Below the pieces are notes generated by a model, which was given only the letters and a program-made list of their open reading frames with translations, was not told the origin of the DNA and made no database searches. Made by a program: the position numbers and the translations under genes. This document shows, in pieces, positions 7,868 to 60,814 of a stretch of DNA of 64,000 nt. The stretch's first letter is position 1. Every line of letters begins with the position of its first letter. The stretch comes from Ricordea florida. Lineage: Eukaryota; Cnidaria; Anthozoa; Corallimorpharia; Ricordeidae. The stretch covers positions 10,926,736 to 10,990,735 of the forward strand of contig OX453282.1 of assembly GCA_949710005.1 (NCBI GenBank), in the 5' to 3' direction.

Positions 7868-8211
7868 TTCACAGTTCCACGAGAATATCAACAGCTTTAT
7901 TTTCCACACGTCGAGATTACACTCACAATTACTCTTCTAGTCGTCTTTCGGTGAAATTCGCTATAAACGTAAACTAGGTTTAGAAAAGGGGCGTAAATAA
8001 ACTCAAGGAAGTAAACAAAGGTTGAGGATTCAGTAAACTTACACAATTGTGGATCCTGTTGGGGTGTGGAGAGTCAAATTCGGAAAAATACACCAACGCA
8101 CAAAGTTGTCTCCGTAACAAAAACAAAACATGGCCGACCCCGAGCACATGGTCGCGATGGCCGAAAGGCCCTATGGGATGAAGTCCGAAACAACAGAAAA
8201 AATTAACAACA
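7840..8211 (-). repeat. 5' LTR of BEL-1
   Basis: 372-bp direct repeat partner of 104-475, with identical length and, by eye, identical sequence. On the minus strand it starts TGTTGT and ends GAGAACA. It is followed on the outside by the target duplication CTACC (8212-8216). The first in-frame ATG of gag lies at 7867, inside this LTR. Confidence 0.95.
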
Positions 8212-19712: not shown

Positions 19713-22700
19713 CTAAGGCTCCTCGATGGGGAATCCCTGGTCTCCATCTTCATTATTCTGCATCAACAGAACCAACTTATGTACTGGGCGGTCAAACAAG
19801 GTAAGACTCTTCTTGTGCTTGCCTTGAGGGTCGATTGAAGGATTCGCTACGGCCACCCTCACCTTACGTACGTGTCCATTCTCGTCCGGGTACACTTCAG
19901 AGACACGGGCGAGTGGCCATCTATTTCGTGGAACGTCATCATCCTTCAAGATGACTACATCATCAACCTGAAGATTTCTGTGGGAACTGGTCCACTTCTG
20001 TCTAGTCTGCAACGATTGTAAGTAGCTCCTTCTCCACTGCTCCCAGAACTCATTCGCGAGGTGCTGGACACGACACCACTGCCTTCTGGAGTACACATCA
20101 GCCCGTTGAAAACTCCCTGGTGGTGGTAGGACCAGTTTAGACTTCATGGTTAGCAGTTGACTTGGAGTGAGAGCCTTCAGAGAATCTGGCGCCGAGGAGT
20201 CATCTATAGTCAAGGGACGGCTGTTCACTATCGCCTCGGCTTCGACCATCAGGGTTCTCAGGGACTCGTCATTTAACTGTCTACCATGCTTCAGCAGCAG
20301 GGCCTCCAATACGCTTCTAACAGTGCGGATCTGCCTCTCCCACACCCCGCCCATGTGGCTGGCGTGCGGGACGTTCATTTTGAAACTTATCCAGTTGCAA
20401 TTATCCTTCAAAAGTTCTTTTTGGATAACGTCATGGTGCATTTCGGCAAGTGCCGATTCTAACTCGTTTCTCGCACCAACAAAGTTGGTACCCTGGTCGG
20501 ATCGTAGCTGTCGAACTGGCCCGCGACGACCGACAAAACGGCGGTAGGCATTGATGAATGAATCGGTGGTAAGGTATGCTGCAACCTCTAAATGGATGGC
20601 CCGAGAATTCATGCAAGTAAACAAGACACCATACCGCTTCATCTCCTTTCTCCCCTCTTTGATGTACCACGGGCCAAAATAGTCCACTGCGCTGTATGTA
20701 AACGGAGGGCTTGGCCTCAACCGGTCTTCTGGGAGATTAGCCATCTTTTGCACTTGCGTCACTCCTCGTAACTTTCGGCATGTCACACACTCGGCTACGT
20801 GCTTTCCGACGGTAGAACTCCCACCCACTATCCAAAGACCAGACTCACGTATTTCACTTTGCGTTCGAGCTCTTCCTTGATGGCCTATTTGTTGGTGATA
20901 GTGGCGGACAGTCAGGTCTGTCACATGCGATTTCTTGGGTAGTATCACAGGATGTCTCGCTTCATAGGGAAGATTGGCCAAGTCGATTCGACCACCGACA
21001 CGCAGGACGCCATGCTCATCGAGAAACGGGTCCAGGCGGTGAATAGGACTTGCTTTCTTTAGTGGAGTGCGGGATCTAACACCTCCACCTTCCTTGCGCT
21101 GGGCTGATTGTAGCAGCTCTATTTCCTCATTAAACTGGTGCCTCTGGACTGCCTTGAAAATCTTCTGCTCTGCTAGCTGCAGTTCCTCGACGTTCACAGG
21201 GTAGAATCGCTGGCCCTTTTCCTTTGACGTCGTTTCATCATGTTGGTCTCTTTGACCCTTTAAGATCTTCATGAAGATCAGGCAAGTCGCTAATGCCTTC
21301 CTTGCGCGATGCCAGTCCGAGAAGTATTCGAGCCGTTCGAGAAGTGTTGGATATTGTTGAGTGGTGCAAGTGAAAACTTTGATTCTCTTCACTTCTGGAT
21401 CCTCGGGAGAAACATCAAATGGTGGATGCTTGTCTTTCTTGTACCCGAGCGGGTTCCACAGAAGTGCCGGCCTCTTCCACCATCTCGTGCTGTGTATCAA
21501 CTCTTGTGCATGGAGACCTCTCGACGCGTCATCGGCTGGGTTGTCATCAGTATCAATATGCTCCCATTGGTCGGGAGACGTACGGTCTCGAATCTGTTGG
21601 ACGCGATTGGCGACAAACGTATGGAAGCGTCGAGCATCATTGGATATATACCCCAGAACGACATTGCTATCCGTCCAAAATACTTGTGGAATCTTGCTGT
21701 ACTTCAGCTCTCTCTGTAGGAAGGCACTGACCTTCGTTGACACCACAGCAGCAGTAAGCTCTAATCTTGGGACCGTAACTGGCTTGAGCGGCGTGACGCG
21801 TGACTTCGCCATGACAAGACAGCAGTGAACTTCACCTTGGCTGTTCACCATCCTCAGATAGGAGCATTGGCCATATCCGTTAATGCTCGCGTCGGAGAAG
21901 CTTTGAAGCTCGATGGTTCTTGGCTCACCAAAATTCTCCGGCTTATAGCAGCGAGGAACTCTTAGCTCGACTAGCTTCTGTAATTCGCTTCTCCATTTCT
22001 CCCATCTGGGTCTTATGGAATCAGGTACCGCTTCATCCCAATCTGTTTTGTCCTTACACAGCTCTTGTAAAATGCCCTTGCCTATCATTAGGAAGGGCGC
22101 CACCAATCCCAGTGGATCGTAGATCGAACTCACCGAGGCCAATATTCCTCTTCTGGTAAGTGGCCTGTCCTTTAATACCACTCTAAATTGCAGCTGGTCC
22201 GATTCAACACACCACTGGATGCCCAATGCCTTTTCAATTGGTAATAGATCTCTGGTCACATCCAGGTCCCGAATTACACTTGCGCGTTGATCCTTGGGGA
22301 TGGCCTCGTTTACTTCCTTGCTATTAGAGATCAACTTGTGGAGGTTAAATCCTCCTCTGGAACACAAACCTTTGGTATTCCTTACCAGGGCGATGGCTTC
22401 GTTGGCGGTCGGGACTGACCTAAGGCCGTCATCCACGTAGAAGTCGTCTCTTACGAAGTCTGCTGCTTCGCTTCCCCACTCTTTCTCAAAGTCGTCAGCT
22501 GTGGTCTTGAGTGCGAAGTTTGCGCAGCCAGGGGAAGACGTTGCACCAAAGAGATGCACCTTCATCCTGAACTCAGCCGGAGGCTTGTCTAAGTCGCCAT
22601 CCTCCCACCAGAAGAACCTGAGAAAGTTGCGATGCTCTACATCAACGAACACCTGAAGGAACATTCCTTCAATGTCGCAGGTAAGAGCGACCGGCTCCTT

Positions 22701-39460: not shown

Positions 39461-40690
39461 CTTTTACACAATTCCCTCTCAATGGGTTGCAGACTTTTTC
39501 AATTTCACTTGTTGATTGTTGCTGCCAATTTGGTCGTTTCAGAAAGGAAGATACAAGCATCTTAGATGCCTCTCCACCACGTCTTTTGTTGAAAATGATA
39601 ACCCTGCAAAGTGTACTCTCAGCAAGGTGGCCCCAGGTCTGCATGGCTGGATTGTCTGCTAAGCCTTTGATGTTTTCCTTCATTCTTTGAAGGAGATGTT
39701 TTCGCAGGACTTCTAGGTCTTTAGTCAATGGAAGGAGATCAGTTGTATTAAATTTTCGGCCTTGGATGGTTGAAAGGGAATGATGAGTGATTTTGTCACC
39801 CCATTCAGACTCCATACGTTTTTCAAGGTTCTCTTGCTCTTGTAGTAGAACTTGGTCTTTTTCTCTCAGGGCTCTTCCCTTCAATATGGAAATACACTTT
39901 TTGAGTGAGTAGCCCAACTTGAGTGCCAAGGATGGGGTACCCACTGTGTTCTCTCTTCCAGTATTTTCAAAACTGCATAGCGTTTTAACAGCAGCTACAA
40001 TGCGGTCAAAGCATTCTGGCTTTAGGAAATCTGCAAGGCCTAATCTTGCTTCCTCAATTTCTTCCTGTCGTAGCTGAATCAGAAGCCTTGAAAGCTGTCT
40101 CATGCCCTGTGACACCTCATGAAGGCGTTCCCTGCCAAGTTTCTCTGCAGTAATGGAACCATATGTCTTAATTAACAGGTCATTTCTTGCAGCAATAGAG
40201 ATTTTATCACATTTCATCATAGCAATGACTTCCTGAAGCAATACACTGTCAGTTAGTTTTGTGTCTTTAATTAGGAGCATCTTGCTTTTCTCATGGATTC
40301 TTTGGCACTTTTATACTTGATCATCTTCTTTGCTGCTCTTTTTTCTGAAGCTGCATGACTTGCAATGGTGTGAGAGTTCACTTTTACGGATAAACACATA
40401 GCAGAAGCAACAGGGCAGAAATTCGTCTGGACCGCTGTCATCTAACTCTGTTGGTCTTCTTTTGACAATTATTTGGCCAGCATCGATTTCCCGAACTTTA
40501 ATGTTGTGGTGATAGTTTCCCATATTCCTTAGTTTCTCAAGCTGTAGTTTTCTTTCTTTGGATCCAGTTTTTAAAGCAATTGCCTTGGCCACTTCTGGTT
40601 CATTAGAATGAACATTCATGTAGTGTCTGGCAATTTTACTGTACAGCTTTTCTTAATAAAAGCAGGCTTGCTTTTTGTCATAGATGCGAG
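39461..40690 (-). pseudogene. Zinc-finger and central-domain exon of a tyrosine-recombinase-like gene family
   Basis: One minus-strand frame with few breaks. It starts with a zinc-finger-like stretch (ACFY, stop in place of an expected Cys, EKLYSKIARHYMNVHSNE), then NYHHNIKVREI, a Cys/His cluster (CCFCYVFIRKSELSHHCKSC), a stop near 40311, and a conserved helical region of about 270 residues (LLQEVIAMMKCDKISIAARN, TPSLALKLGYSLKKCISILK, ESTLCRVIIFNKRRGGEAS). Near the end one base is lost and the sense continues as QPIERELCKR before a good donor AAAAG/GTACTT at 39461. I recall many uncharacterised coral and fish proteins of this layout. Its function is unknown. Two stops and one frameshift make this copy a pseudogene. 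Confidence 0.7.
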
Positions 40691-40809
40691 TGTTTTCCTT
40701 GCTTTTCTTTACCTTGGAAGTATCAGCTGATGATTAAGAAACAGTAGAATAGAGATGTTTTCCTGTTTGTGTTATTTTCAAATATGTAGCATGCTAATCA
40801 GAGTTCAAT

Positions 40810-42788: not shown

Positions 42789-45700
42789 TCAAGTCATCAC
42801 ATAATCATTCATCCATGCTGGGCGTTGACAGCTCCGGCTGGATCTGCGGGGACTGGTAATCGTCGAAGAGCCCGGTACGGCTGCTTCTACAGGCTCACTT
42901 GAAGGGGATGCTTCCTGACTGGGACCCATGGGTGCGGTCTGGTTCTGTTCCCTTGGGGCTGTGTGGTCAGTGTCATCGGAAGGCTGAGCCTTATGGTCAT
43001 CTGTGCTCTGGGGTTCATCTGACGCGATCAGTTGACGGCGGTTTCGTCTGTAAACAGAGTCCCCAATTTGCACTTTGTAGCTTCGCGGACCAGCCTCACC
43101 AACACAGGTGCCCGCCGTCCATGTGGTGTTCCCTGGCAGTCGCATACGCACGGATTGTCCAGGTATAATTGGCTGAAGTGGCTTCGTGTGTCTGTTGTAG
43201 AAGTGCTGTTGGCGCCGCTTCATGCCCATTATGGCTCTCGTTTCTTCTTCTGTTGAGTGTCGCGGCTGAAGCAATGTACCGGACACCGGCAACAAGGTCT
43301 TACAACGCCGACCGAAGAGGCGTTGTGCTGGGCTTGTTCCAACACCTTCTGTTGGTGTATTCCGCCAATCCAGTAGGGCAAGGTACTCAGACTGGCCCGA
43401 TGCTTTGCATTTTTTGAAGAGGCGCTTGACCGTCTGGACAGCATTCTCCGCTTTCCCATTAGATTGTGGGTAGCGAGGCGACGACGTGTGGTGTTCAAAA
43501 GACCAGGTTTCTGCAAAGACTGCGAACTCAGCTGATGCAAATTGGGTACCATTGTCCGTAACAAGGACATCAGGGATGCCATATCGTGCAAACACTTCTT
43601 TCATCTCTTTGATAACACTTCTCGATGTCACAATGTTAATGCGGGCGACTTCGATGAAGTTTCTGTAGTAATCTGTAATGACTAGCAATGTACGGCCATC
43701 CAATTCACAGAGATCTGCAGCCACCTTTGACCATGGTCGTGCCACCATTTCATGTGGCTGTAGTGGTTCTTTGCCAGGAGCACTTCGATGCGTGAGACAG
43801 ACATCACACTTGGATACGTACTCCTTTAATTCGGTAGCCATACGAGGCCCGTAAAGGGTGTCTCGAGCTCTCCGAATGCAGCCTTCGACACCAATGTGAG
43901 AGGCGTGTGTAACAGCCATGAGTTCCTTACGTAAGGTCACTGGAACTACCAATTGCTGCCCTTTGAAAACGAGATCCCCCTGAACCGTCAACTCGTCACG
44001 AAAGTCAAAGTATGGGTACAGACATTCAGGGGTCTCCTTCCGACTATCAGGCCAACCATTCTGAATGGTGTGCCGTAGTTGTTGTAACACTGGATCATCA
44101 GCAGAAGCATGTTTGATTTGCTGCCAGCGTGCTTTGCTCACAGGGAGGGAGATTCTGTGGTCGATGTCTTCCAGCTTTTGAGAGAAGTGGCATGAATTAA
44201 CTTCAGGAAGGTATGCTCTACTAAGGGTGTCCGCTAAGAACATCTCTTTTCCTTTCTTGTAGTTGATCCTCAGGTTGTACTTCTGTGTTTTCATCAGCAT
44301 GCGTTGCAGACGTTTCGGTGCTGAATGGAGAGGCTTGAGTGCAATGTTTTCCAACGGCTTGTGGTCAGTTTCAATAGTAACCATGTAACGGCCAAAGATG
44401 TATGCCTCAAACCTGTCACAGGCGAACACGATAGCTAGCATCTCTTTCTCGATTTGCGCATACCGAGTTTCTGCAGGTGTGAGTGCCCGGGATGCGTAAG
44501 CCACAGGCTGGCCATTTTGGGTCAATGCTGCTCCTAATCCAGATTGTGAAGAATCACACTGGATTGTGGCTTCTTCCTTCAAATTGTAGTACCGAAGCAC
44601 TGGTGTAGTGGTGACGGCTTTCTTAAGTGTGTCCAACGCTGTCTGTTGGGGACTTTCCCAGGTCCAATCCACGTCGTTTTGAGTCAGCTCTCGCAGTGGC
44701 TTGGTTATATCTGAGAGATGCGGCAAGAACTTGCTTAGGTATTGTGCTAGACCTAACAGTCTCTGTACTCCCGCTTTGTCTGTGGGCGCAGGCATCTCAG
44801 TTATGGCTCTGACTTTGGCTGGGTCTACGCATAAGCCTTCATCTGTGGCTATGTGCCCAATAAATGGCACCTCCTTCTGCCGAAGAGCGAACTTGTCTGT
44901 GTTAAGGACAACCCCCTGGGCTTCACAACGCTGCAGGAATGTCATGAGGTTCTTATCATGGTCGTGAACGGCTTCCAGATGCGTGTGTCCAAATCCGACA
45001 ACCACAAAGTCATCTGCGATGACCTCCACACCATGCAGGCCCTCGATAAGTTCATGCATCCGTCTTTGGAATACTTCTGGGGCCGAGCTGATTCCGAAAG
45101 GCATTCTTTTCCAACGGAAACGCCCAAATGGTGTTTGAAATGTTGTGAGGAACGATGATTTCTCGTCCAACACAACGTGCCAAAAGCCACTTCGAACATC
45201 TAATTTTGTGAAGACTTTGGCCCCATAAAGGCGTGTAGCGACATCCTCAATGGTGGGGAGAGGGTAATGTTCCCGAAGGATTCCCCGATTCAAGTCCTTC
45301 GGATCCAGGCAAATTCGTAACTTGCCATTTGCCTTGGGGACTACGACCATTGAACTAACCCACGCTGTTGGGATGGTCACGGCTTCGATAATATCTTGCT
45401 GGTGAAGGTCATCTAAAGTTACCTTGAGTTTGTCTCTCAATGCAACTGGCACCCTGCGGGGTGCGTTCTGTACTGGGTCTACCTCAGTATCGATTCTGAT
45501 GCGATATACACCTTCCATTTTGCCAACGTTGGCTCTGAAGACTTTTGGATACCTTCTAAGTAAGTCATCTTTGGAGAGAGGAGAGTGACGTGACGTCTCG
45601 CCACTTGTGCCGTCCACTGTGTAAACAGGAAAACTTCCAGTACTCAGTTTGTGTAGTTCATCATTGTCAATGTACTTGATGATTTTCATTCCAATGCATG

Positions 45701-45842
45701 CTTTTCTTCCCAAGAGCGGCCGTATTTCGGTACTATCCACTAGTTTACAGTTGAGAAGACACTGGTAGTCACCACGAGAGACGTGAATTTGAACTTCACC
45801 TACTACAGGAATTTTCGAGCCCCCATACGCTACGATCGCTGT
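42789..45842 (-). CDS. Gypsy-1 RT, RNase H, integrase
   Basis: In the same frame as gag, beyond the TAG. Counting from 45740: RT with LRICLDPKDLN, LDVRSGFWHV and GVEVIADDFVVVG (ADD near residue 240 in place of the common YxDD), RNase H near 395 (IQCDSSQSGLGAAL, TDHKPLE), the integrase zinc domain HASHIGVEGC ... CDVCLTH (near 645), core acidic residues in VITDYY, LVTDNGTQFA and GKAENAVQTVK (near 690-762), and the short C-terminal domain (SYKVQIGDSVYRRNRRQL). All catalytic acidic residues are present. The C-terminal tail is low in complexity with no chromodomain. Confidence 0.93.
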   Translation of the reverse strand, partial: TAIVAYGGSKIPVVGEVQIHVSRGDYQCLLNCKLVDSTEIRPLLGRKACIGMKIIKYIDNDELHKLSTGSFPVYTVDGTSGETSRHSPLSKDDLLRRYPKVFRANVGKMEGVYRIRIDTEVDPVQNAPRRVPVALRDKLKVTLDDLHQQDIIEAVTIPTAWVSSMVVVPKANGKLRICLDPKDLNRGILREHYPLPTIEDVATRLYGAKVFTKLDVRSGFWHVVLDEKSSFLTTFQTPFGRFRWKRMPFGISSAPEVFQRRMHELIEGLHGVEVIADDFVVVGFGHTHLEAVHDHDKNLMTFLQRCEAQGVVLNTDKFALRQKEVPFIGHIATDEGLCVDPAKVRAITEMPAPTDKAGVQRLLGLAQYLSKFLPHLSDITKPLRELTQNDVDWTWESPQQTALDTLKKAVTTTPVLRYYNLKEEATIQCDSSQSGLGAALTQNGQPVAYASRALTPAETRYAQIEKEMLAIVFACDRFEAYIFGRYMVTIETDHKPLENIALKPLHSAPKRLQRMLMKTQKYNLRINYKKGKEMFLADTLSRAYLPEVNSCHFSQKLEDIDHRISLPVSKARWQQIKHASADDPVLQQLRHTIQNGWPDSRKETPECLYPYFDFRDELTVQGDLVFKGQQLVVPVTLRKELMAVTHASHIGVEGCIRRARDTLYGPRMATELKEYVSKCDVCLTHRSAPGKEPLQPHEMVARPWSKVAADLCELDGRTLLVITDYYRNFIEVARINIVTSRSVIKEMKEVFARYGIPDVLVTDNGTQFASAEFAVFAETWSFEHHTSSPRYPQSNGKAENAVQTVKRLFKKCKASGQSEYLALLDWRNTPTEGVGTSPAQRLFGRRCKTLLPVSGTLLQPRHSTEEETRAIMGMKRRQQHFYNRHTKPLQPIIPGQSVRMRLPGNTTWTAGTCVGEAGPRSYKVQIGDSVYRRNRRQLIASDEPQSTDDHKAQPSDDTDHTAPREQNQTAPMGPSQEASPSSEPVEAAVPGSSTITSPRRSSRSCQRPAWMNDYVMT

Positions 45843-48478: not shown

Positions 48479-49060
48479 TTATGTACAGTGTAGCTCATTT
48501 TTCTCTTGGTTGAGTACCTGTGATACTGTTGCAAGGTACTTTAAAAGTCTGGTGCTTGTTATGGCCTCTGGATGTTGCAGGTTAAAACCTACTGTTTTTG
48601 TCAGGTTCTTTAGGCACTCCCAAAGCCCTAGGTAGATGTTTAAGAGATGTCTCATTTGGTCGAGCGAAAATATAGGGGTTTTCCTTCTGGGTGTGGACCT
48701 TCTCTTTGTTGTCAACCAAAAGTTGTATGTCCTCTTTCATCTTGTGTGTAAGAAGAACTGGAACTTATCATTCTTATCTGCTGCTTACTGCCATAATGTG
48801 CACTTTACCCTCCACACCAAGTTTCTTCAGGTGGCAATTTGCTTTCTTTACTTCTATGTCATTAAGAAGTCTTCTCAACCGGTTCTCACTATATATATTA
48901 AATTTATAATTTAGACATAAATCAATCATGTGGCTACTTTCAACCAATTCTGAATCCGCTTTTACTAAGGTTGACTTAAGACGTTTGCCTCTGTATTCAG
49001 GCAAGAAGTTTGTTTTTGGAAGGGCTGTGTTTAAAAACTTTTTTTGTATGTACAAATTTC
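48479..49060 (-). pseudogene. SET plus tyrosine-recombinase-like copy C1
   Basis: Minus strand. SET fragments come first: FLPEYRGKRL, then NRLRRLLNDIEVKKANC and LGVEGKVHIM. After a deletion of the SET end the sequence passes into VPVLLTHKMKEDIQLLVDNK and ENPYIFARPNETSLKHL, and in another frame VGFNLQHPEAITSTRLLKYL and ATVSQVLNQEKNEL. The second half is the N-terminal part of the recombinase-like domain seen intact at 60327-60814. Frame changes and an internal SET deletion show decay. Confidence 0.75.
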
Positions 49061-49984
49061 TATGACAATCAATTGGCCAGTCTCTATTTCACAAAATAAT
49101 TAATGTTAATTTTGTGGTGGTAGTTTTTCAGATTCCTCAGTTTCATTAAGGCATCACAGCTTTCTGGGAAGCCAGTTCTTTTTTATTGTTATTACATTTA
49201 AATCAATTTACCAATTTTCTAAGTATGAAAAAAAGGACACTAGTTGTCCAAAATCAGTACAAATGTCCTTCAATGGTTTGTTTTTTTTGTGTGTGTGTTG
49301 GTGATACCAATCATTCTTGTTAGTGCAATACTATTGGTAACAATTCATGATGCAGCATTAGTAGAGCATTCCATAATTCAAGCAATAAACATTCCAACTG
49401 ATTCAGACTAATTGTAACTCAAACATCCCTATTAACACCAGTATGTGAAATAAATCCAGTTTAACTTCCAATTCAATGGCGAAGTTTAGTTTAAAGATGT
49501 CTTGTACCATAAAAATCATTCAGAGTCTTGTTTAGTGTAGTGTTTGAGTTATGGTAGTTAGTTCTAATCAAAAAACAGTGGAATTACATCTCCTAGCCTG
49601 AACCTTAAGTTAACCTTGCTGCCCTACTTATTGCATTTTTCACAAAGTACTTCACCGCAGTCCAGTCTCTAGGACAGGTTTGCTTTTTCTGATGCACTCA
49701 AGGCATTGCACCTTTCCAAGAAGTTCTTTCTTTTTGATTGCATTTCCAAGGTGTTGAAATACACATTGCTTTTCTCTGTTAGTCCATGGTGTGTGGGTCA
49801 CTGTCCTTTTCTTTCTTTGACTTTAGTGGATGAAAATGCTGTGTTTTTCCCCTTCTAGTTTCTTCAATTTCTAGTTGACTATTTTACCCCCAAAATGATT
49901 TACAGATCATCCTAAACCATGTTCAAATGTACTCTTGACACAATCAAGCTGCACTTTAGGTACTTTTTCTCTCTAGATAGGAAA
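49061..49984. repeat. Non-coding spacer repeated between SET copies
   Basis: Segments at about 49069-49280 and 49820-50060 align with 50797-51030 and 51355-51620 (for example CAATCAATTGGYCAGTCTCT, GTTGTCCAAAATCAGTACAAATG, GTGGATGAAAATGCTGTGTTTT). Together with the SET parts they define a diverged tandem duplication of about 1.6-1.75 kb. Confidence 0.8.
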
Positions 49985-50810
49985 AATTGACGTGAGTGGT
50001 TTCCCTGCCCAATTTGTTACATCTCCTGCATGTGTCAATAGCAGTCAAAATTTTGCTAACTTTGGCCAATTCAATTTTGGACTTGTGCAGACCATAGAAC
50101 TCTCGATTTATATTCGAGCTCATGCCCCATGTGGAATGCTAACCACCAGAGCTCATTTTTGTCTAAGGTTGAGTACTTGTGATACTGAACTTACAGTACA
50201 AGTCGGATATACCTTTGCATTCAAAATACGGTCTGGTTTGGTGATGCAAAAGTATTGGAGTTTGCCTTCTTTGGAGCCTCTCTCTATAGTCAACTGATAG
50301 TTGTATGGCCTCTTTCTTCCCACTTTTTGGAAAAACTGGAACTTTTCATCCTCTTCTGCTAAGCTTCTTAATGCCATAATCATATAACAACTGAGTTCCC
50401 GCTGAAATGTCCATAGTCGCAAATAAACAAAGGTGCACTTTCCCCTCCACATCAAGTTTCTTCATCTGGCAGTTTGCTTTTCTTGCTTCTATGTCATTAA
50501 CAAGTCTTCCTAACCCATTCGCAAATATGGTATGAATACTTAAACTTAAGAATAGAGCTACTTTCAATCAATTCTGAATCTGTTCTTATTACGGTTGAAT
50601 TCAAACTCACCAGTTTGTTTTTCCTTTAACATCAAAGAAATAGAGGAAACTTCCCAATTCTGATTCATATGTTGCCTTCCGTCTTTCCACTTCTTCAACA
50701 TCAAGAAGTTCGCCTCTGTATTCGAGCAAGAAATCTCCCTTTTGAAACGGCTGTGTTGTAAAAATGTTTTTGTGTGTACCAATTAATCTTATGGCAATCA
50801 ATTGGTCAGT
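49985..50810 (-). pseudogene. SET plus tyrosine-recombinase-like copy C2, same-frame junction
   Basis: Minus strand. The SET N-terminal half (50607-50801) reads IRLIGTHKNIFTTQPFQKGD, then LLEYRGELLDVEEVERRKAT and GSFLYFFDVKGK. The SET C-terminal half (50346-50567) reads NGLGRLVNDIEARKANC, GKVHLCLFATMDISAG and TQLLYDYGIKK. In the same frame, after one TGA, it continues KVPVFPKSGKKEAIQLSVDY, the start of the recombinase-like domain. Further on come SVSQVLNL and ELWWLAFHMGHELE, and the tail near 49993 resembles the end of the intact exon. KMT5A-type enzymes have an NHS motif in the cofactor site; here it reads NDI. This is the best-preserved SET copy of the three. Confidence 0.78.
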
Positions 50811-51539
50811 CTCTTTCCCAAAATCAATGTTACTGTTGTGATGCTAGTTTTCAGATTCCTCTGTTCCTTAATTTAAGGCATCACAGCTTTCCAGGAAGTC
50901 ACTTCTTTTTTATTGCTTCTAAAACTGTTGCATTTACATTAATATTACTTGCCAATTTTCTGAATATGAAAAGCACAACAGTATAGTTGTCCAAAATCAG
51001 TACAAATGACCTTCCGTGGTTCTTCCCTTTTTTACGTTGATGTTACCGATCATTCTTGTCAGTGCAATACTTGGTTGGTGCAGCATTAAGGTGGGCTTTA
51101 CTCTTTGTGAAGTTGGCTGATTTTCTTGTTTGTGTTGTTTTCAAATATATTTGCCAGTGCTTTTGAAGGTGTAACATATATAACTTGTTAACCCCTTATG
51201 CCAGGCATTGTTAATTTAGGAAAGCTTACCAGATTGAAATCAGGCGGTGATATTTCATGTATATCTTGCATGTATATGTCACCATCAAACTTCTTCAGTG
51301 GCCTTCTCACAACATGAAAAGATCTCTTTTAAGGAAAGCTTAATGTTGGTCTCTAGTGGATGAAAATGCTGTGTTTTCCCCTTCTAGTTTCTTCAGTTTT
51401 CAGTTGACTGTTTTAGGCCCAAAATGATTCACAGGTCATCCTAAACCATGTTCAAACGTACATGTATTCTTGATGCAAATTGATCAAAGCTGTACTGCAG
51501 GTCAAGTTTCTATCTAGGTAGAAGGCATTAATGTGAATA
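50811..51539. repeat. Second copy of the SET-cluster spacer
   Basis: Aligns with the spacer at 49061-49984 as described there. It also contains a TTTTCTTGTTTGTGTTGTTTTCAAATAT stretch near 51130 that recurs near 39400 and 40755 at the edges of the zinc-finger exon. Confidence 0.75.
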
Positions 51540-52110
51540 TCATTGAGTGGTTTCCCTGCCCAATTTGTTGCATCTTCCTGTTTCAATAGCAGTCAAAATT
51601 TTGCTGACTTTGGCAAGTGAAGTTTTGGTCTTATTTAGATGATAGAACTCTCTATTTATATCCAGCACATGGGACATGTGCTGGATATAAATAGATAGTA
51701 ATAGTGGTGCATGCTAACCACCATAGCTCATCTTTTTCGAAGGTTGAGTACTTGTGATACTGAACTTACAAGTGATATACATTTGAAAAATAGAGTCTGG
51801 TTTGGTCATGCAAAAAATAAATATAGGGGTTTTCCTTCTTGATTTGGACCTTCTGTCTCAAGTTAACCAATATCTGTACGGCCTCTTTCTTCCTACTGTT
51901 TGGAAAAACTGAAACATTCCATCTTTTGCTGTTTAATGCCATAATCACACAACAACTGATTGCCTGGTTAAATGTCCATGGTCGCAAATAGACAAGGGTG
52001 CACTTTCCCCTCCACATAAAGTTTCTTCTTAGCTGAGTTTGCTTTCCTTGCTTCTATGCCATTAACGAGTCTTCTCAACCCCGTTTGTAGCTACTTTCAA
52101 TCAATCCTGA
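51540..52110 (-). pseudogene. SET plus tyrosine-recombinase-like copy C3
   Basis: Minus strand. A SET C-terminal piece (GKVHPCLFATMDI, CDYGIKQQ near 51940-52015) is followed, shifted by one base, by VSVFPNSRKKEAVQILVNL and KVQIKKENPYIYF. Then come a truncated middle, a short SVSQVLNLRKR-like stretch and a tail that aligns with the end of C2. A 20-base perfect palindrome (51652-51694) interrupts the region that is simple in the other copies. Confidence 0.7.
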
Positions 52111-53211
52111 ATCCGTTCTTTGTCTACTGGCAGTGTTTTTAGTGGCAATACTTAAAGCACTTTGATTTTTGCAAACTTGTTCATCCATGATCTATTGGGC
52201 AGAGTTTGCTTTGTCATAAAGGAAAATTAATACCATTGCAGAAATGTCACTTTTCAAGTGCCCTTCGTTTCAGCAAATTTGTACATTATAAATAATTATG
52301 CTTCCAAGTCAGCAGTCACAGTGGTATTAAAGCACATTTGTTGCAGTTTTAAAATAAAATCACAATGTTTGTAACTTTAAGTCAGTAGAGATGAACTTAC
52401 ATGTAAAAGGAGCTAATTATTATTACTGGGTTGCTATGGCAATCCAGTATTAAAATGGGGTTGCTATATTTTTTTTTCTCCGTGAGAAATTGCAATTCTT
52501 GCGCAATGTTGCCTATATAAAGGGTTAGAAAAGACGCCGCCGCTGTGTGATTGGCTTGGCATGAACATCGCCATAACAACCTGATTGAAGAGACGGTGAA
52601 GAGAACGTGAAAAGTTTCATGTGGACTCCATTCGCGTAAGAGTTTTTCTTCTGCAGAGCTGCTCTCTTTTCGAGCTGTTAACTCGATTTATTCACTAAAT
52701 GACTTTATTAGTGTCTATGTTTGCTATTCCTGGATGTGTTTACGTGCTGGAGAGTGTTTTCTTCTTTAAACGTTGAGGTCTGTGGTGTTAGCGATTCCTT
52801 CGGTGAAAGGATTCACATTTTTTCTGTTGGAAGTGTAGAGCTTATTTTTAAGAATTGGTTCACGCTTAGCAGACCACGTCCATCGAGTTCATGAGTCGAT
52901 CCACGCGTGAAGTTTGGAAAGCAAGAGTGTGGCTCGCTGTGACATGTATTATTTTGAATCCAAGATAACAAGCTGGTTACGCACGTCAAAATACGATACT
53001 TCGTCTTAACTTGAGTTCTAAAAGCGATCAAATCGAAAACATCGGGGTAGCATTCTCATAAAGTGTTCATTTATATTTATAGCGAAAGATCTATAACATA
53101 TAAAATACAAGATATACCCTTAGTAACTGTTGTGTACGTCATACACTATGCAGCCATGTTTGCAAGATGAATATTTAATGAGTACCCACAATGCTTAGCG
53201 CCGTACATAAC
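52111..53211 (-). repeat. Probable 3' LTR of Gypsy-2 (outer end undetermined) and flank
   Basis: The minus strand from 53211 begins TGTTATGTACGGCGCTAAG directly after a polypurine tract, the expected start of a 3' LTR. A TATA-like CTATAAATATAAATG follows about 115 bases in (near 53080-53095). The end of the LTR cannot be placed because no second LTR is present in the window; a limit near 52.5-52.6 kb is only a guess. The rest has no gene. Confidence 0.5.
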
Positions 53212-53281: not shown

Positions 53282-53495
53282 AAATATCAACAATAAAGCT
53301 TCTGAAACGAGAACATAGTGTCCACTGTTCAAACTTGACAGTCCTTAATTTGAACAAATAAAAATAGAATATCCACAGTTTGAACAATATATCAACAATA
53401 CAGTTTCTGAAAAGAGAATATAGTGTCCACTGCTCAAACTTGAAATAGTCCTTAACTTGAGCAAATAACAAAATAGCATATCTACAGTTTGAAGT
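53282..53495 (-). repeat. 105-bp tandem duplication at the pol 3' end of Gypsy-2
   Basis: ATCAACAATAAAGCTTCTGAAACGAGAA (near 53286) recurs 105 bases later as ATCAACAATACAGTTTCTGAAAAGAGAA. Each copy continues with ATAGTGTCCACTG and a CACAGTTTGAA / TACAGTTTGAA end. The right copy overlaps the last pol codons. Confidence 0.75.
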
Positions 53496-56400
53496 CACGG
53501 AGATTACTAGGGGTTTTCACAGTTCGTCCTGATCGGGTCTTGACTACTTCTGCCTCTGACTGGGTCATAACAGGTGGTCCTAACTGTGCAGCTGGGTCAT
53601 TTCTCGATTCTTCCATGGTTCTGGTTTGAGGTACTATGTTTTTGTTCTCACTGGTGTTAGTTACCAGAGAGCTGGGACTATCCATCGGCTGGACTGTCAG
53701 TCGCTTATTTAACGCTGCTGTGTCCTCTGATGCCATAGTGGCTGGAGCCCTTGTGAAATGTAAGTGCCTTCTATTTCTCCGATACTTGGTGCCATCAGGT
53801 GCTTGAACAACATAAGATCTGGGTGACCTATGTTTGTACAGGACTGTTGCTGCTTTCCATTGTTTGTCATGTTGCATTCTGATAACATCGCCCGTGTGTA
53901 GTGATGGTAACTCTCTGCCACAGTGCTTGTCATATTGCTTTTTTTCGTTCTCCTTCATTTTCTCCAGGATGTGTTTAATTTCTCTGGCACCCTGTGGTCT
54001 GAGTAGGGCTGCAGTGGTTGGGAGTGTTGTCTTAAGTCTGCGTCCCATCAGAAGTTGTGCTGGGGATAAATTAATCTTCTCTAGTGGTGTGTTTCGATAG
54101 TTCAGAAGAGCTTGATATGGGTCTGCACCTTTCTTAAGCAGGGTTTTCATTGTCTGGACTGCTCTTTCCACCTCGCCGTTTGCTTGAGGATAATGTGGGC
54201 TAGATGTGGTATGTTCAAACCCATAACACTTTGTAAATGCATTGAATTCTGAACTTGTAATTATAAACTGTGAACCATTGTCAGTTATCAATTGGTCTGG
54301 TATTCCATGTCTTGAGAACTGGCTCTTTAGGTAACTAATGGTGTTCCTGCTGGTGAGATCATCAAGTTTGTCAACTTCAATCCACTTGGAGTAGTAATCT
54401 ACGCACAATAGATAACTATTTCCTTGGTACTCAAAGAGGTCTGCTGCTATCTTTGACCATGGTCTCTCTGGTGTTTCAGTGATGATCATTGGCTCTTTGG
54501 CATGTGCTGTTTGGTACTGGCTGCACTTGAAGCACTTGGCCACCTGTTCTTCGATTTGGGTCATCATTCGTGGCCAAGACAGTAGGTCTCGAGCGCGTTG
54601 TTTGCTCTTGACTATCCCTTGGTGTGACCCATGTATCTTCTCCAGCATCTGAGCTCTAAGTGCATGTGGAACAATGAGCTTTTGTCCTTTGAATAATAGG
54701 CCATCAATGCAAGAGATCTCTTCTCTGAACGTCCAGTACTGTCTGATCGCTAGTGGAACTTCTGCCCTCTTGTCTGGCCACCCTTCCAGCACAATATCTT
54801 GAAGCACTTGCATGACTGAATCATTAGCTGTAGCTTTCTGCAATTCCAGGTACCTTTCAGGCGAAATAGGTAAGTGTGCTGTTAAATTCACTTCATTGAC
54901 CTCTAGATCTGGCACTAGTGTTTCCTTTGTTTCAGGGAGGAATGCCCTGCTTAAGGCATCAGCTAAGTTCATTTCTGCTCCTGGCTTGAACTTGACTTTT
55001 AGATCATATCGTTGTAGGGACAACATCATCTTTTGTAGGCGAAGTGGTGCTTGGTGTAATGGTTTGTTCAGAACAACTTCAAGAGGCTTGTGGTCTGACT
55101 GGACCGTAACTTGCTTGCCATAGAGGTATTGATGGAATTTTTGCTCACCATAAACAATAGCCAGGGTTTCTTTTTCTATTTGCGCATATTTTCTTTGGGT
55201 GGAGGTTAATGCTCTGTATGCATATGCGATTGGCTTGTCTTCCTGTATAACTACAGCACCGAGTCCCTTTGAACTGGCATCCACTGACAGTGTAACTGGC
55301 TTATCAGGGTCATAATAACCAAGGACAGGTGTACTAGAAGCCATCAACTTGAGCTTCTGAAAGCTTTCCTCTTGCTCCTTTTCCCAGTGCCACTCAACCT
55401 CTTTCTCCAATAGTTGTCTGAGTGGGGAGCTCACATCAGCCATATTTGGCATGAATTTGGCCAAGTACTGCATGAATCCTAGAAATGTTCTCAGTTCCTT
55501 TGCACTCTTTGGTTGTCTCATTTCCTGTACCGCACGGATTTTTTCTGGGTCCGCTATGAGCCCATCCTTTGTGAGCACGTGACCAATGTAGGGTACAGTT
55601 TCTTGTCTGATGTGGCATTTCTCAGGGTTGAGTTTTAGGTTTGCTTCACGAGATCTGTCTAGGACTTGTCGGAGTCGTACATCATGTTCATTAACATCTC
55701 GTCCCCAGACTAGTATGTCGTCTACTATGGGTTTGGCTCCTTCAATATCTTCAAACAGGTTGGAAATGGACTTCTGAAACACTTCAGGTGCTGATTTTAT
55801 CCCGAACGGGAGTCGAGTAAATCGATATCTTCCAAATGGAGAATTGAAGGTGCAGAGCTTGGAGCTGGCTTCATCTAACTTGATTTGCCAAAATCCTGAC
55901 TTGGCATCTAAGGTTGAGAACACCTTTGCACCAGGAATTTCTGCGACAACTTCTTCAATCGTTTTCATTGGATAGTGTTCACGTTTAATGGCCTGATTTA
56001 GATCCCTTGGATCAATGCAGATACGAATTTTGGAGGGTTTTATAACCGTGACCATGCTGCTGACCCACTCAGTCGGCTCAGTTTGGCGGACAATTACTCC
56101 AGCTTTTTCCATGCGATCTAACTCTTCTTTTATCTTGCCTTTGAGTGCCACGGGGACTTTCCTAGGAGGATGGACAACAGGTGTTATCGCTAGGTCAATC
56201 TTGATTGCATGTTCTCCAGGAAGACAGCCAAGTTCTTGGAATAAATCGGAATACTCTTGCAGTATGTCGGGAGTATCTGTTGTTTCAGTGTGTGTTACTG
56301 AACTTGCTGGGCTGGTGGTATCTGCCTGTTGGTCTTCAGGAGAGGTGGATGCAACTGTATGTATCCGACTGACTAGTCCCATCTCTGTGCAGGTGGCTGC

Positions 56401-56799
56401 ACTAAGTACTGCTGGCACTTTGCAGTCAACAATGTAAAATTTCACTTGGTACAGTTTGTCTTTATATTGGCATGGCATTGTTGTGACTCCTCTGACATCG
56501 ATCACATGACCAGAGTAGGACTTCAGTTGCGCAGCTGACTTTGTAAATTCTGCTTTGATTCCTAGCTTGTGGAAGGTTGCTAGGGGCATCACATTACAAC
56601 GCGCTTTTGTGTCTAACTGGAATTTGACCACTTTGTCATGAATCATAATTTCCTCGTACCACTCGCCGATGTCAACTGCGTTCACTGTTTCGAGACATCC
56701 CACATAGAATTCTTCATCACTGCTACTTTCCTGCACAAAGTGCATGTTCTTTGGTAGCACGGTTTTGCAAACATTTGCGAAATGATTTGGCTTGTTGCA
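53482..56799 (-). CDS. Gypsy-2 protease, RT, RNase H, integrase
   Basis: In the same frame as gag, after the TAG. It starts with the second half of a zinc knuckle (CNKPNHFANVC). By residue from 56760: protease FQLDTKARCNVMP near 47, where the usual D-T-G reads D-T-K; RT with IRICIDPRDLN, LDAKSGFWQI and PIVDDILVWG (VDD near 348); RNase H near 491 (LSVDASSKGLGAV, SDHKPLE); integrase CFKCSQYQ (near 742) and core residues in LCVDYYSKW, LITDNGSQF and GEVERAVQTMK (near 787-862); and a short C-terminal domain (SYVVQAPDGTKYRRNRRHL). RT and integrase catalytic residues look intact; the protease glycine change probably inactivates it. Confidence 0.93.
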   Translation of the reverse strand, partial: CNKPNHFANVCKTVLPKNMHFVQESSSDEEFYVGCLETVNAVDIGEWYEEIMIHDKVVKFQLDTKARCNVMPLATFHKLGIKAEFTKSAAQLKSYSGHVIDVRGVTTMPCQYKDKLYQVKFYIVDCKVPAVLSAATCTEMGLVSRIHTVASTSPEDQQADTTSPASSVTHTETTDTPDILQEYSDLFQELGCLPGEHAIKIDLAITPVVHPPRKVPVALKGKIKEELDRMEKAGVIVRQTEPTEWVSSMVTVIKPSKIRICIDPRDLNQAIKREHYPMKTIEEVVAEIPGAKVFSTLDAKSGFWQIKLDEASSKLCTFNSPFGRYRFTRLPFGIKSAPEVFQKSISNLFEDIEGAKPIVDDILVWGRDVNEHDVRLRQVLDRSREANLKLNPEKCHIRQETVPYIGHVLTKDGLIADPEKIRAVQEMRQPKSAKELRTFLGFMQYLAKFMPNMADVSSPLRQLLEKEVEWHWEKEQEESFQKLKLMASSTPVLGYYDPDKPVTLSVDASSKGLGAVVIQEDKPIAYAYRALTSTQRKYAQIEKETLAIVYGEQKFHQYLYGKQVTVQSDHKPLEVVLNKPLHQAPLRLQKMMLSLQRYDLKVKFKPGAEMNLADALSRAFLPETKETLVPDLEVNEVNLTAHLPISPERYLELQKATANDSVMQVLQDIVLEGWPDKRAEVPLAIRQYWTFREEISCIDGLLFKGQKLIVPHALRAQMLEKIHGSHQGIVKSKQRARDLLSWPRMMTQIEEQVAKCFKCSQYQTAHAKEPMIITETPERPWSKIAADLFEYQGNSYLLCVDYYSKWIEVDKLDDLTSRNTISYLKSQFSRHGIPDQLITDNGSQFIITSSEFNAFTKCYGFEHTTSSPHYPQANGEVERAVQTMKTLLKKGADPYQALLNYRNTPLEKINLSPAQLLMGRRLKTTLPTTAALLRPQGAREIKHILEKMKENEKKQYDKHCGRELPSLHTGDVIRMQHDKQWKAATVLYKHRSPRSYVVQAPDGTKYRRNRRHLHFTRAPATMASEDTAALNKRLTVQPMDSPSSLVTNTSENKNIVPQTRTMEESRNDPAAQLGPPVMTQSEAEVVKTRSGRTVKTPSNLRDFKL

Positions 56800-57507: not shown

Positions 57508-57604
57508 TTCGGTTCTGGATATTCGTTAGGCTCTAATCGATCTTGATACAAGGTTTTCTTTCCTCGATGGCTTTCTTTCACGCGAGAATTGAAAAAAAAC
57601 CTCA

Positions 57605-57676
57605 GGCTTGAACGGGATTCGAACCCATGACCTCTGCAATACCGGAGCAGTGCTCTACCAACTGAGCTATCAAGCC
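57605..57676 (-). tRNA. tRNA-like Pol III unit 1 (nominal anticodon GGT)
   Basis: 72 bases fold as a cloverleaf. The acceptor stem GGCTTGA/TCAAGCC and D stem GCTC/GAGC are perfect, and the T arm is ATGGG TTCGAAT CCCGT. The A box TAGCTCAGTTGG and B box GGTTCGAATCC are present, and an eight-T terminator follows. The anticodon stem has a T-T mismatch at its base and the loop reads CCGGTAT, with C instead of the universal U33. The nominal anticodon GGT would be Thr, which eukaryotes normally read with AGT. Probably transcribed but not a normal decoder. Confidence 0.6.
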
Positions 57677-57859
57677 AACTGGGCGCAGGTCATATTGTGA
57701 GTTCGTTATATACCCGTAGATGAAGAAGAATGATGCAAATGAATATATGAAAGACCATATATTTGAACTGCGGATTAATATGTAATAACATTAATTGATC
57801 ATCGCAGTTATGTAAACAACTTAAGACGCTGTGAATTTGAAGCCTGAAAAAAAACCTCA

Positions 57860-57931
57860 GGCTTGAACGGGATTCGAACCCATGACCTCTGCAAGACCGG
57901 AGCAGTGCTCTACCAACTGAGCTATCAAGCC
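57860..57931 (-). tRNA. tRNA-like Pol III unit 2
   Basis: Same fold and promoter boxes as unit 1, with anticodon loop CCGGTCT. A run of eight Ts follows the 3' end on the minus strand. C33 and the T-T mismatch are retained. Confidence 0.6.
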
Positions 57932-58115
57932 AACTGGAAGCTGGTCATATTGTGAGTTCGTTGTATACCTGTAGATGAAGAAGAATGTTTGCAAATGAAT
58001 ATATGAAAGACCATATATTTGAACTGCGGATTAATATATAATAACATTAATTGATCATCGCAGTTATGTACACAACTTAAGACGCTGTGAATTTGAAGCC
58101 TGAAAAAAAACCTCA

Positions 58116-58187
58116 GGCTTGAACGGGATTCGAACCCATGACCTCTGCGATACCGGAGCAGTGCTCTACCAACTGAGCTATCAAGCC
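58116..58187 (-). tRNA. tRNA-like Pol III unit 3
   Basis: Same fold as unit 1, loop CCGGTAT, with a T-C mismatch at the base of the anticodon stem. An eight-T terminator follows. Confidence 0.6.
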
Positions 58188-58390: not shown

Positions 58391-58892
58391 GTTCACTGTA
58401 GGTAAAATTTTGTTTGACAAATTGAATACTGGCATCTTAAGAATGTTGTCTGTGCTTCAGAAACCCTTGTGTCTTGGTTTTAATTTGTATCCAGATGTAG
58501 TGGTAAGTCATTAGATTATGTCTACTGGGCCTTAAATGACTCTTTCCTTAAGAAACCAGCCATATCCTATCTTCCCTCTTGAAATGCCAAATTTTATGGA
58601 CAACCCCAGCTTAGGTTTTATCTTAAATGTATCTTGAATTTTAGGAATTTAATAATCGAAAGATTTATTAGTTTGGAAATTTGATAAATAGCACACTGTG
58701 GATACTGCACCTAACACGTTATGCTGCACATGAACCTTGCTATCAGTTCAAAGTATACATACAGTACACTTTATTTGAAAGAGCTGTGTCATCAAGGAGG
58801 TAAACCTTAATTACACTGTATGGAAAACCAGAGATCCAACCAAGTGAGAATGCTTTAATGGGACTAAGTGCTGCTGCAGGCTATGATTTTAC
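58391..58892. other. No gene recognised
   Basis: AT-rich sequence after the truncated fourth tRNA-like unit; it would be intron if the two exons to its right belong to one gene. Confidence 0.4.
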
Positions 58893-58967
58893 CTGATGGA
58901 CCAATAGATTGACGTACCATTCGGGGTCCTTCTTCGTCGCTCCCACTAGCAATATCACTGTTAAGGG
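58893..58967 (-). CDS. Putative small exon downstream of the recombinase-like exon
   Basis: A 75-base minus-strand exon candidate between a pyrimidine-rich acceptor (CCATTCCATTAG) and a donor CATCAG/GTAAAA. It reads LNSDIASGSDEEGPRMVRQS followed by IGPSG, an acidic linker. Its phase (1-1) matches the phase-1 end of the exon at 60327-60814, so both could be spliced together. No homology is recalled for the peptide itself. Confidence 0.4.
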
Positions 58968-60326
58968 CTAATGGAATGGTAGGAAACAAAATAACACAGA
59001 ACTGAATGACTTCAAATTCAGTTAACAATGTTGTAATGATTTTATTATGGTGTATACATAATATGCTGTGGCTCAATTTTATCCTTGTTTTAAATTTTTT
59101 TTCCTTTCTTGAAACTCATTATCATAAAAAATCAAAGGCTCCTTCGAGCTACCTCATGGTATGTGGTAATTATTCCATGAAGTGCTGTCCTTTCCCCAGA
59201 TCATAAAGCGTTCATTCCGAATAATTCGCTTTGTGCACTCTTGTTACGACTGATCGATTACTCATCGTTCAAATTGGAGACATTGTCACTTTTAAGGCTT
59301 TAAAACCCATTTCTTCCCCCTTGAGCATTCTTGAACACATTTCCTGTTCGTTCGCAAGATCTTCAAAAGTGTACTTTGATCAAAGATGGAGCGAAAGGAA
59401 TGAAAACCCACCTTGACAATCTTTGCGTCAGGCTCAACACAACAGACGCCACTTTGTAACTGCATATGCTGCAGCTGTCTCACCCCCTCCCCCCACATAT
59501 GTGAAAATAAAACAATTGCACGACTTTGTGGACAAAACCAAACCTAGTAGGGGAGATAGGGGAGAACCTTTTTAATTCACATTTAATGCCGATTTAATGC
59601 ATAAATTAATTGTCTAACAGGAATGGAGTGACTAATCCAACCATTACTATACCTCATGGTATGACATACATACCATGAGGTAATTACCTTTATCATGATA
59701 ACTGCAGATAACAAGGGAAAAGAAAATTTAAACCAAGGATAAAATTAAGCCACAACATAATATTATATTACATGTATAGTTCATGGCAAGTCACAAGCAA
59801 GTGGAACTGTATGCTGTAGTCTGTTAGGCTTAATGTGTGAAATTTAGTTACTTTTGGACGTTAATTTTAGTCTACCAGTATTTCATTTGAAATAAAAATG
59901 CCATTTCACTGGGCTTAAATCAATACAATTAGGACCAGGTAGGCATCTGCATTTGTCACCCAGGCATAATTTATGTTTAACTCAACATTACACGTGAAGG
60001 AATCTTGTATTTGCCTCTTTTGGTTGAGATGTTGAAAGCAACTTAGCAAAGCTATCTTCAGTTTAGAACTGGCCAGTTTGTCTGGTGCCCAGCCTTTAAT
60101 AATGAGACCAATGGATTCAACAGTAAACCAAATTAACCTAAGGAAATTCATTCTTCATACTGGACTAGGTACAGGCATTTTTTAACAGCTACATGCATAT
60201 GATTTTTCTTCATGGGTAACTTCTCTCACTTTCATTTACTGTACAATCAACATAACTTATTATTGTTATTATAATGATGGTAATCCTAGCAAAATGATGC
60301 ACAGTGAACTACTTAGCTATGCTTAC
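58968..60326. other. Intron-like region with a large inverted duplication
   Basis: No coding sequence is seen. The segment at about 59045-59180 reappears inverted at about 59655-59785 (TGTGGCTYAATTTTATCCTTG, ATTATCATRA, CTACCTCATGGTATG). The right arm also contains a short palindrome TACCTCATGGTATG...CATACCATGAGGTA. Confidence 0.55.
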
Positions 60327-60814
60327 CATCTGCTATATCAATATCAATATCATCAAGTTGTTTCCCTGCCCACTTTGATGCATCTCCTTCATCAACAACA
60401 GTCAGAATTTTACTGAATTTTGCTAATTCAATTGTGGACTCGTGTAGACGGTAGAACTCTCGATGTATATCCAGCTCATGCCCCATGTGGCGTGCTAACC
60501 ACTGCAGCTCATTTTTCTCTAGGTCGAGTACCTGTGATACTGTTGCAATGTACTTTCGCAATCTGGTGCTTGTTATGGCCTCTGGTTGTTGTAGGTTAAG
60601 ACCTACTGTTTTTGTCCGTTTGTTTAGGCACTCCCAGTGCCTTAGATGTTTAAGAGATGTCTCATTTGGTCGAGCAAAAATATAGGGGTTTTCCTTCTCG
60701 ATGTGGACCTTGTCTCTGTTGTCAACCAATAGTTGTATGGCCTCTTTCATCTCACCAGTAAGAAGAACTGGCACTTTTCTTCCCCTTTTTCCCCGAATCT
60801 CTACCATGTCTAAC
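60327..60814 (-). CDS. Tyrosine-recombinase-like exon, intact
   Basis: A 488-base open exon between acceptor TAACCATAG and donor GATG/GTAAGC; it starts LDMVEIRGKRGRKVPVLLTG. It contains IQLLVDNRDKVHIEKENPYI, a basic segment, EAITSTRLRKYIATVSQVL, WLARHMGHELDIHREFYRL and IELAKFSKILTVVDEG. The order T-R-L-R-K-x-x-A-T ... L-A-R-H-M-G-H ... F-Y-R resembles the second half of tyrosine recombinases (H-x-L-R-x-x-x-A-T, L-G-H, catalytic Y), with S/T where a histidine is usual. The acceptor phase fits the donor at 39461. I recall the family from uncharacterised coral and fish proteins. Whether it cuts DNA or is a domesticated fold is unknown. Confidence 0.7.

Follow-up and report, generated by a model that had tools for sequence, protein, structure and literature searches.

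Crypton elements encode a eukaryotic tyrosine recombinase (YR) without a reverse transcriptase. They occur in cnidarians, sea urchin and medaka, some oomycete members also encode a Ulp1 protease, and the animal Cryptons have no C-terminal domain and no terminal repeats that have been found (Kojima and Jurka 2011, PMC3212892). Neither 'SET domain' nor 'methyltransferase' occurs in the main text of that paper. The gene family described here joins a YR to a SET domain of the KMT5A type, and decayed copies of it lie in a stretch of 64,000 nucleotides from the corallimorph Ricordea florida (C11:10926736-10990735, hereafter the window), part of a genome of 537.8 Mb in 48 contigs. Compared by published description, the family resembles Cryptons in its eukaryotic YR, in the Ulp1-type protease of one member and in that no terminal repeats were seen. 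It differs in its N-terminal SET, finger-like motifs, six introns (in a gene on contig C10), units of at least 33 kb (on contigs C5 and C12) and C-terminal domain, a conserved C-terminal exon following the YR on contigs C10, C12 and C5.

KMT5A (SETD8), an H4K20 methyltransferase, has its SET at the C-terminal end (PMC10368294). The same paper reports up to 65 KMT5A-similar genes for Hydractinia and 61 for sea urchin. In most of them the SET is N-terminal and is followed by a long C-terminal part homologous between the two animals; the paper regards them as regulators of chromatin, and neither 'recombinase' nor 'integrase' occurs in its main text. The family described here also has an N-terminal SET and a long C-terminal part, and one of its members is a sea-urchin protein with SET and YR motifs (P0040, S. 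purpuratus LOC100890715). Judging from this protein, with no Hydractinia sequence among the homologues listed, the Hydractinia and sea-urchin genes probably belong to the same family. The family is like KMT5A in SET type and fold, but unlike that short protein with its C-terminal SET, the SET precedes the YR in all 102 members with both motifs and has ND in place of NH. We know of no recombinase in KMT5A.

SETMAR, a single gene and not a multi-copy family, carries a DDE-type mariner transposase. Its fusion of SET and transposase likewise joins a histone-methylase domain to a mobile-element enzyme, but the SET of SETMAR belongs to subfamily II and that of SETD8 to VI (PMC2200798). The fungal Starship elements are, in the available descriptions, very large units classed by their tyrosine recombinase, and differ from the present family in being fungal and cargo-carrying. 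To our knowledge, no SET-YR fusion occurs in Starships. The initial annotation of the window stated that no described element has this pair, and no paper joining the two was found in the searches made of the literature outside subscription papers and Repbase. The pair is not described in the available text of the whale-shark and zebrafish SET papers ('recombinase' occurs 0 times in the zebrafish one). The statement holds less well for databases, which contain the proteins, and for the 2023 paper (PMC10368294), which probably reports the same family as a KMT5A expansion.

Relic copies in the window and a gene model on contig C10

Three-frame reading of the minus strand and BLAST against an intact gene on contig C10 placed three decayed copies, each with a SET followed by a recombinase-like part, as the initial annotation had proposed (copies C1–C4 are loci in the window; contigs C1, C5, C6, C7, C8, C10, C11 and C12 are genome sequences). 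Percentages are nucleotide identities to the intact gene.

48486..48982, minus strand: copy C1, with a SETa/SETb intron remnant (48982-48933, 84%), a decayed SETb piece (48888-48795, 84%) and a YR-exon piece (48769-48486, 90%)
49503..50762, minus strand: copy C2, with SETa (50762-50611, 93%), a 72-bp intron (50610-50539, 92%), SETb (50533-50373, 96%), YR-exon pieces (50355-50231 and 50187-49995, 77-83%) and the C-terminal exon (95%) with downstream sequence (49823-49503)
51527..52120, minus strand: copy C3, with an intron remnant (52120-52089), SETb (52081-51938, 87%) and YR-exon pieces (51918-51795, 51762-51709 and 51680-51527, 76-83%)

The intact gene lies on contig C10, in a paralogue of the window segment with mostly 91-97% nucleotide identity. 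It has seven exons on one strand.

27547763-27547640: exon 1
27547312-27547150: SETa
27547077-27546881: SETb
27532204-27530938: core exon
27529654-27529167: YR exon
27528165-27528100: exon 4
27527616-27527372: C-terminal exon

The exons of this model are in phase, the junctions inspected have GT-AG splice sites, and 849 codons are open from ATG to stop (807 from SETa); the SETb-core intron, one of six, is 14.7 kb long. The SET motifs of the predicted protein are RLVND (107) and YDYG (148), and its YR motifs are NKRRGGE (541), GKRGRK (592), STRLRK (666), HMGH (693) and FYRL (704); CFYC/CCFC motifs of a finger-like kind were noted by eye. The modelled architecture is near certain: an N-terminal KMT5A-type SET, then C/H finger-like motifs, the whole of a tyrosine recombinase and, at the C-terminal end, a small conserved domain. 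The proposed fusion had been made to depend on an intact paralogue with both domains, and one is present here at the level of a gene model.

Copies C1–C3 lack the 1267-nt core exon, and with it the recombinase's first half and the finger-like C/H motifs recognised by eye; one 82-nt match to this exon (74%) lies upstream of the SET piece in copy C1. SETb breaks off at nt ~166 of 197 in copies C2 and C3 and at 109 in copy C1, and the YR exon picks up again at nt ~28-38 of 488. Copies C2 and C3 have a further YR-exon gap in common, from 156 to 273. In-frame stops are found in copy C2, and stops and frame changes in copy C3. As previously noted, a single TGA interrupts the one reading frame that leads from LLYDYGIKKLSRRG to KVPVFPKSGKKEAIQL in copy C2, and the junction is common to the three copies at the nucleotide level. 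That the SET runs directly into the recombinase does not, however, apply to the intact gene: judged by alignment, the direct joint in copies C1–C3 is a deletion scar.

The joint alignable across the three copies, the common gap and the retained 72-bp intron indicate that a single rearranged copy gave rise to all three by tandem duplication, and that they are not processed messengers. Retrocopies of a spliced messenger with the core exon skipped would account for SETb and YR pieces that adjoin without their large intron. But copy C2 keeps the SETa/SETb intron at 92% identity, and the junction falls within both exons (in copies C2 and C3 it joins SETb nt 166 to YR nt ~28-38), off the splice ends, and aligns in all three; this origin is essentially refuted and was rejected. 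The array C3, C2, C1 is also found in the paralogous segment on contig C10, and its C3/C2 part on contig C1, so that the array predates the segmental duplications. By these comparisons, copies C1–C3 are dead and derive by internal deletion and tandem duplication from an animal gene of several exons.

The profile search that the initial annotation had suggested named one of the two domains in the window. Pfam recognized SET in copy C2 (E = 7.8e-12) and in copy C3 (E = 0.0043, under the curated cut-off); copy C1 had no Pfam match of its own, and its SET assignment rests on nucleotide identity to the intact gene. A chance resemblance to SET is excluded at the sequence level. The best PDB matches of the SET are KMT5A chains (4e-29, against 2e-13 for the next SET protein), and in 20 members aligned it is 37-49% identical to human KMT5A and has the same fold. 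The SET of the contig C10 gene is 64% identical to that of Acropora and 48% to human KMT5A. From these matches the SET is specifically of the KMT5A type, as had been claimed. Separate KMT5A-like exons lie at C6:23213334-23214439, and this KMT5A of the genome itself has NH.

No recombinase was named by Pfam in the eight window pieces scanned, so the recombinase identity of the copies was established through the intact gene and its homologues. Pfam gave only SET and a chance DUF5101 match for the 807-amino-acid model, and searches of the YR exon in Pfam, NCBIfam and PDB sequences gave nothing informative. The predicted structure has the YR fold of the catalytic domain, and R354, K403, R480, H506 and Y515 are invariant or nearly so. 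This fold and these residues identify the second part as a tyrosine recombinase, in agreement with the first reading of the window.

Other loci in the genome and members in other animals

The genome searches scored the best candidates only and part of the sequence reads N, so copy numbers are lower bounds; at least 22 matches to a homologous YR protein query were found. Some belong to a second family, whose core and YR exons are 83-93% identical to a protein of Acropora millepora. It has open core and YR exons on contig C5 and at two loci on contig C12, an open YR exon on contig C7, and on contig C8 a partial core match and a YR exon with one stop each. The contig C5 and C12 genes are known exon by exon and not as full reading frames: SET-query matches lie upstream (SETa 8850745-8850581 and SETb 8848847-8848659 on contig C12; SETa 18450128-18450292 and SETb 18452243-18452431 on contig C5), preceded by exon-1-like sequence, and a C-terminal exon follows the YR (C12:8819911-8819672 and C5:18479954-18480193). 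Identity between these copies is 99.0% along one stretch of 11.9 kb, 98.3% along another of 2.2 kb, 99.5% in the 1.5 kb that precede SETa, and 93-98% in a tandem array before the core exon. The unit common to the two contigs is at least 33.6 kb long (C12:8852245-8818671, with C12:8842401-8850745 known by SET matches only).

Tandem arrays occupy the SETb-core introns at C10:27533586-27543149 (units of ~0.7 kb) and about C12:8832780-8842300 (2.37 kb). The units on contig C12 contain a repeated open stretch of 73 codons. These stretches may be linker exons present in several copies, comparable to the peptides that recur between the SET and the YR of P0001 and of many fish members. A third locus, G000:C11:15369236-15393986, has upstream sequence of the second family (91% over 1.5 kb) and SET exons, with no YR match nearby in the YR-protein search.

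A search with the 807-amino-acid model found 352 proteins at E 1e-3 among 7,995 scored, and the best 120 of these, many of them isoforms of one gene, were listed. They come from corals, an octocoral, many fish, a frog (Ranitomeya), sea urchin and metagenomes. Pfam found SET in 106 of the best 120. A motif expression found it in 102, in each of which SET precedes YR, and missed four of the 106 Pfam-SET proteins (P0058, P0070, P0091 and P0116). ND stands where KMT5A has NH, in the S-adenosylmethionine-binding motif, in all 102 and by eye in the other four, hence in 106 of 106. All four YR motifs are present in 110 of the best 120; at least one is missing in P0043, P0087, P0088, P0090, P0112, P0114, P0115, P0118, P0119 and P0120. 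Most YR catalytic positions are conserved in members from cnidarians to vertebrates. One Montipora protein holds in a single chain a SET (67-178), a Ulp1-type protease (389-571) and YR motifs (1169-1322).

Two further searches (the best 120 of 212 matches listed in one, all 51 in the other) added members with SET from Crassostrea (an oyster, with an FHA domain too), Solemya (a bivalve) and Apostichopus (a sea cucumber), which also have ND, unlike human KMT5A with NH. Beetle and snail members had no Pfam SET. Some YR patterns are missing in P0196, P0205, P0208, P0209, P0121 and P0147, among others. The relatives P0130 (Crassostrea virginica), P0209 (Osmerus) and the fish proteins P0121 and P0147 carry an FHA, chromodomain or PF06467 domain, which suggests that the YR or SET module changes partners; most YR motifs are missing from P0121, P0147 and P0209. 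In a tree of 32 rows the SET label needs four changes and three rows are long branches. Several rows without SET are single metagenome reading frames, in which a SET exon further upstream would not be visible, and the tree is therefore no guide to whether SET was gained or lost repeatedly.

Both domains thus lie together in one open gene model of this genome and, in many animals, in a single predicted protein. A KMT5A pseudogene beside a YR element, wrongly joined by automatic gene models in other species, would be compatible with the deletion scar in copies C1–C3 and with the 14.7-kb intron of the contig C10 gene. It is nevertheless very improbable: SET, core and YR stand in like order and strand at three loci of two diverged families, and SET and YR in cnidarian, echinoderm, mollusc and vertebrate proteins, the contig C10 SET is nearer to Acropora than to human KMT5A, and the ND substitution is common to the family. 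Chance adjacency of the two domains is disfavoured by the same order and strand.

Possible mobility of the gene unit

Three observations speak for mobility. Copies or pieces of the gene are dispersed over five contigs. In loach, 15 near-identical proteins have 0-11 differences per 667 residues, and the four Misgurnus proteins with contig data come from contigs of four different sizes. The six loci compared with the contig C12 copy all end in the same (TATG)n tract, ~0.8 kb past the stop codon; the flanks are repetitive, so the agreement at this end may be due in part to the flank of the query itself. Just past the tract, C5:18481297-18483600 matches dozens of places (at least 120 matches, with 39 of 3138 first-look candidates scored). 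No reverse transcriptase domain was found by Pfam (E <= 0.01) in seven family proteins. The proportions of synonymous and non-synonymous differences between families (pS 0.76-0.89 against pN 0.25-0.38) argue that the proteins have been under selection.

The explanation preferred here, judged moderately likely, is that the window copies are dead relics of a SET-YR gene, and that its family is a YR-based unit, recently or still mobile, in which a KMT5A SET was captured early in animal evolution. The chances that the unit is mobile are put at one in two or a little more. The recombinase half would cut and rejoin DNA through a tyrosine-DNA link at sites of its own gene unit, and this would move or copy the whole unit, at least 33 kb with introns included. 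By hypothesis, the SET half of the same protein would mark H4K20-type lysines, or bind nucleosomes, at the unit or its target, and its action would open, select or shield chromatin there. A host gene captured in a YR transposon, as the initial annotation suggested, is plausible, though short of proof, as no element ends were established.

Several observations weigh against a mobile unit with two working enzymes. The box-II histidine of YRs is replaced by a threonine (T477, TxxR), the predicted model has a predicted local distance difference test score below 50 at 503-520, the stretch holding H506 and Y515, and ND replaces NH in all 106 Pfam-SET proteins listed; activity of neither enzyme is therefore certain. 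Viral contigs scanned with alignment A1 gave 125 pattern matches and no relative. Large, intron-rich units are unlike known Cryptons. Neither terminal inverted repeats nor target-site duplications were seen, with only the 3-prime end of the contig C5 copy truly inspected. The flanks beyond the TATG tract on contigs C12 and C5 are other repeats, and the 3-prime end lies in a microsatellite. The segments of the first family on contigs C1, C10 and C11 resemble ordinary segmental duplications that include the relic array. For the newest copies (one on contig C5 and two on C12), pN/pS is near 1 or undefined, with too few changes to tell.

Some of these points fit a host gene family, in which a YR domesticated long ago became joined to a KMT5A SET early in animal history and the family expanded by segmental and tandem duplication, the recombinase now serving DNA binding or another nuclear role and nothing transposing. 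Its multi-exon structure, whole-gene copies with introns, mostly 91-97% identical segments with the relic array on contigs C1, C10 and C11, long purifying selection and the observed copy end in a microsatellite would all be expected. It explains less well the similar copies dispersed on five contigs, the near-identical loach copies on contigs of four sizes, the YR catalytic positions kept from cnidarians to vertebrates, the Ulp1 association, and the 13 early-activated Hydractinia KMT5A-like genes, which the available text of PMC10368294 states to be non-adjacent. A host family is a serious alternative, though less likely than the mobile unit.

Extended beyond this genome, the mobile-unit explanation would define an unrecognised animal class of very large, intron-bearing YR elements that encode their own KMT5A-type methyltransferase, some with a Ulp1-type protease, and so write chromatin. 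The 'KMT5A expansions' of Hydractinia and sea-urchin embryos would be such elements, expressed at genome activation. This extension is tentative, and falls somewhat short of probable. It offers a testable alternative to the published ancient, expanded H4K20 system in these two animals, as the genes may be recombinase-bearing and possibly selfish units. If the unit is mobile, it is a DNA element with its own histone methyltransferase, and whether transposons write their own chromatin state becomes directly testable; if not, it represents an old recombinase, domesticated and joined to a histone enzyme, that selection has kept in several phyla. An identity is also given to a large family in many animal genomes, whose members are labelled mostly 'uncharacterized' in databases.

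Other features of the window

Other pieces of the gene lie outside the range covered by the initial annotation, and the first two below are better preserved than copies C1–C3.

60327..60814, minus strand: copy C4, an open YR exon encoding the C-terminal recombinase half (TSTRLRK, HMGH, FYRL), with acceptor and donor splice sites present and 98% nucleotide identity to the contig C10 exon
39461..40725, minus strand: core exon copy, with finger-like motifs and the N-terminal recombinase half including NKRRGGE, 97% nucleotide identity to the contig C10 exon and two in-frame stops
58394..59331, minus strand: intron-like sequence, a 93% match to the intron between the YR exon and exon 4 of the contig C10 gene

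Three tRNA matches on the minus strand at 57604-58187, ~255 bp apart, are possibly a tandem array of tRNA genes or of short interspersed elements. From about 17040, hundreds of ~10-bp direct repeats form an array of nearly 3 kb. Long open frames of 998-1519 codons at 4940-7936, 19713-24272, 42789-45842 and 53482-56799 (minus strand) possibly encode retroelement polyproteins.

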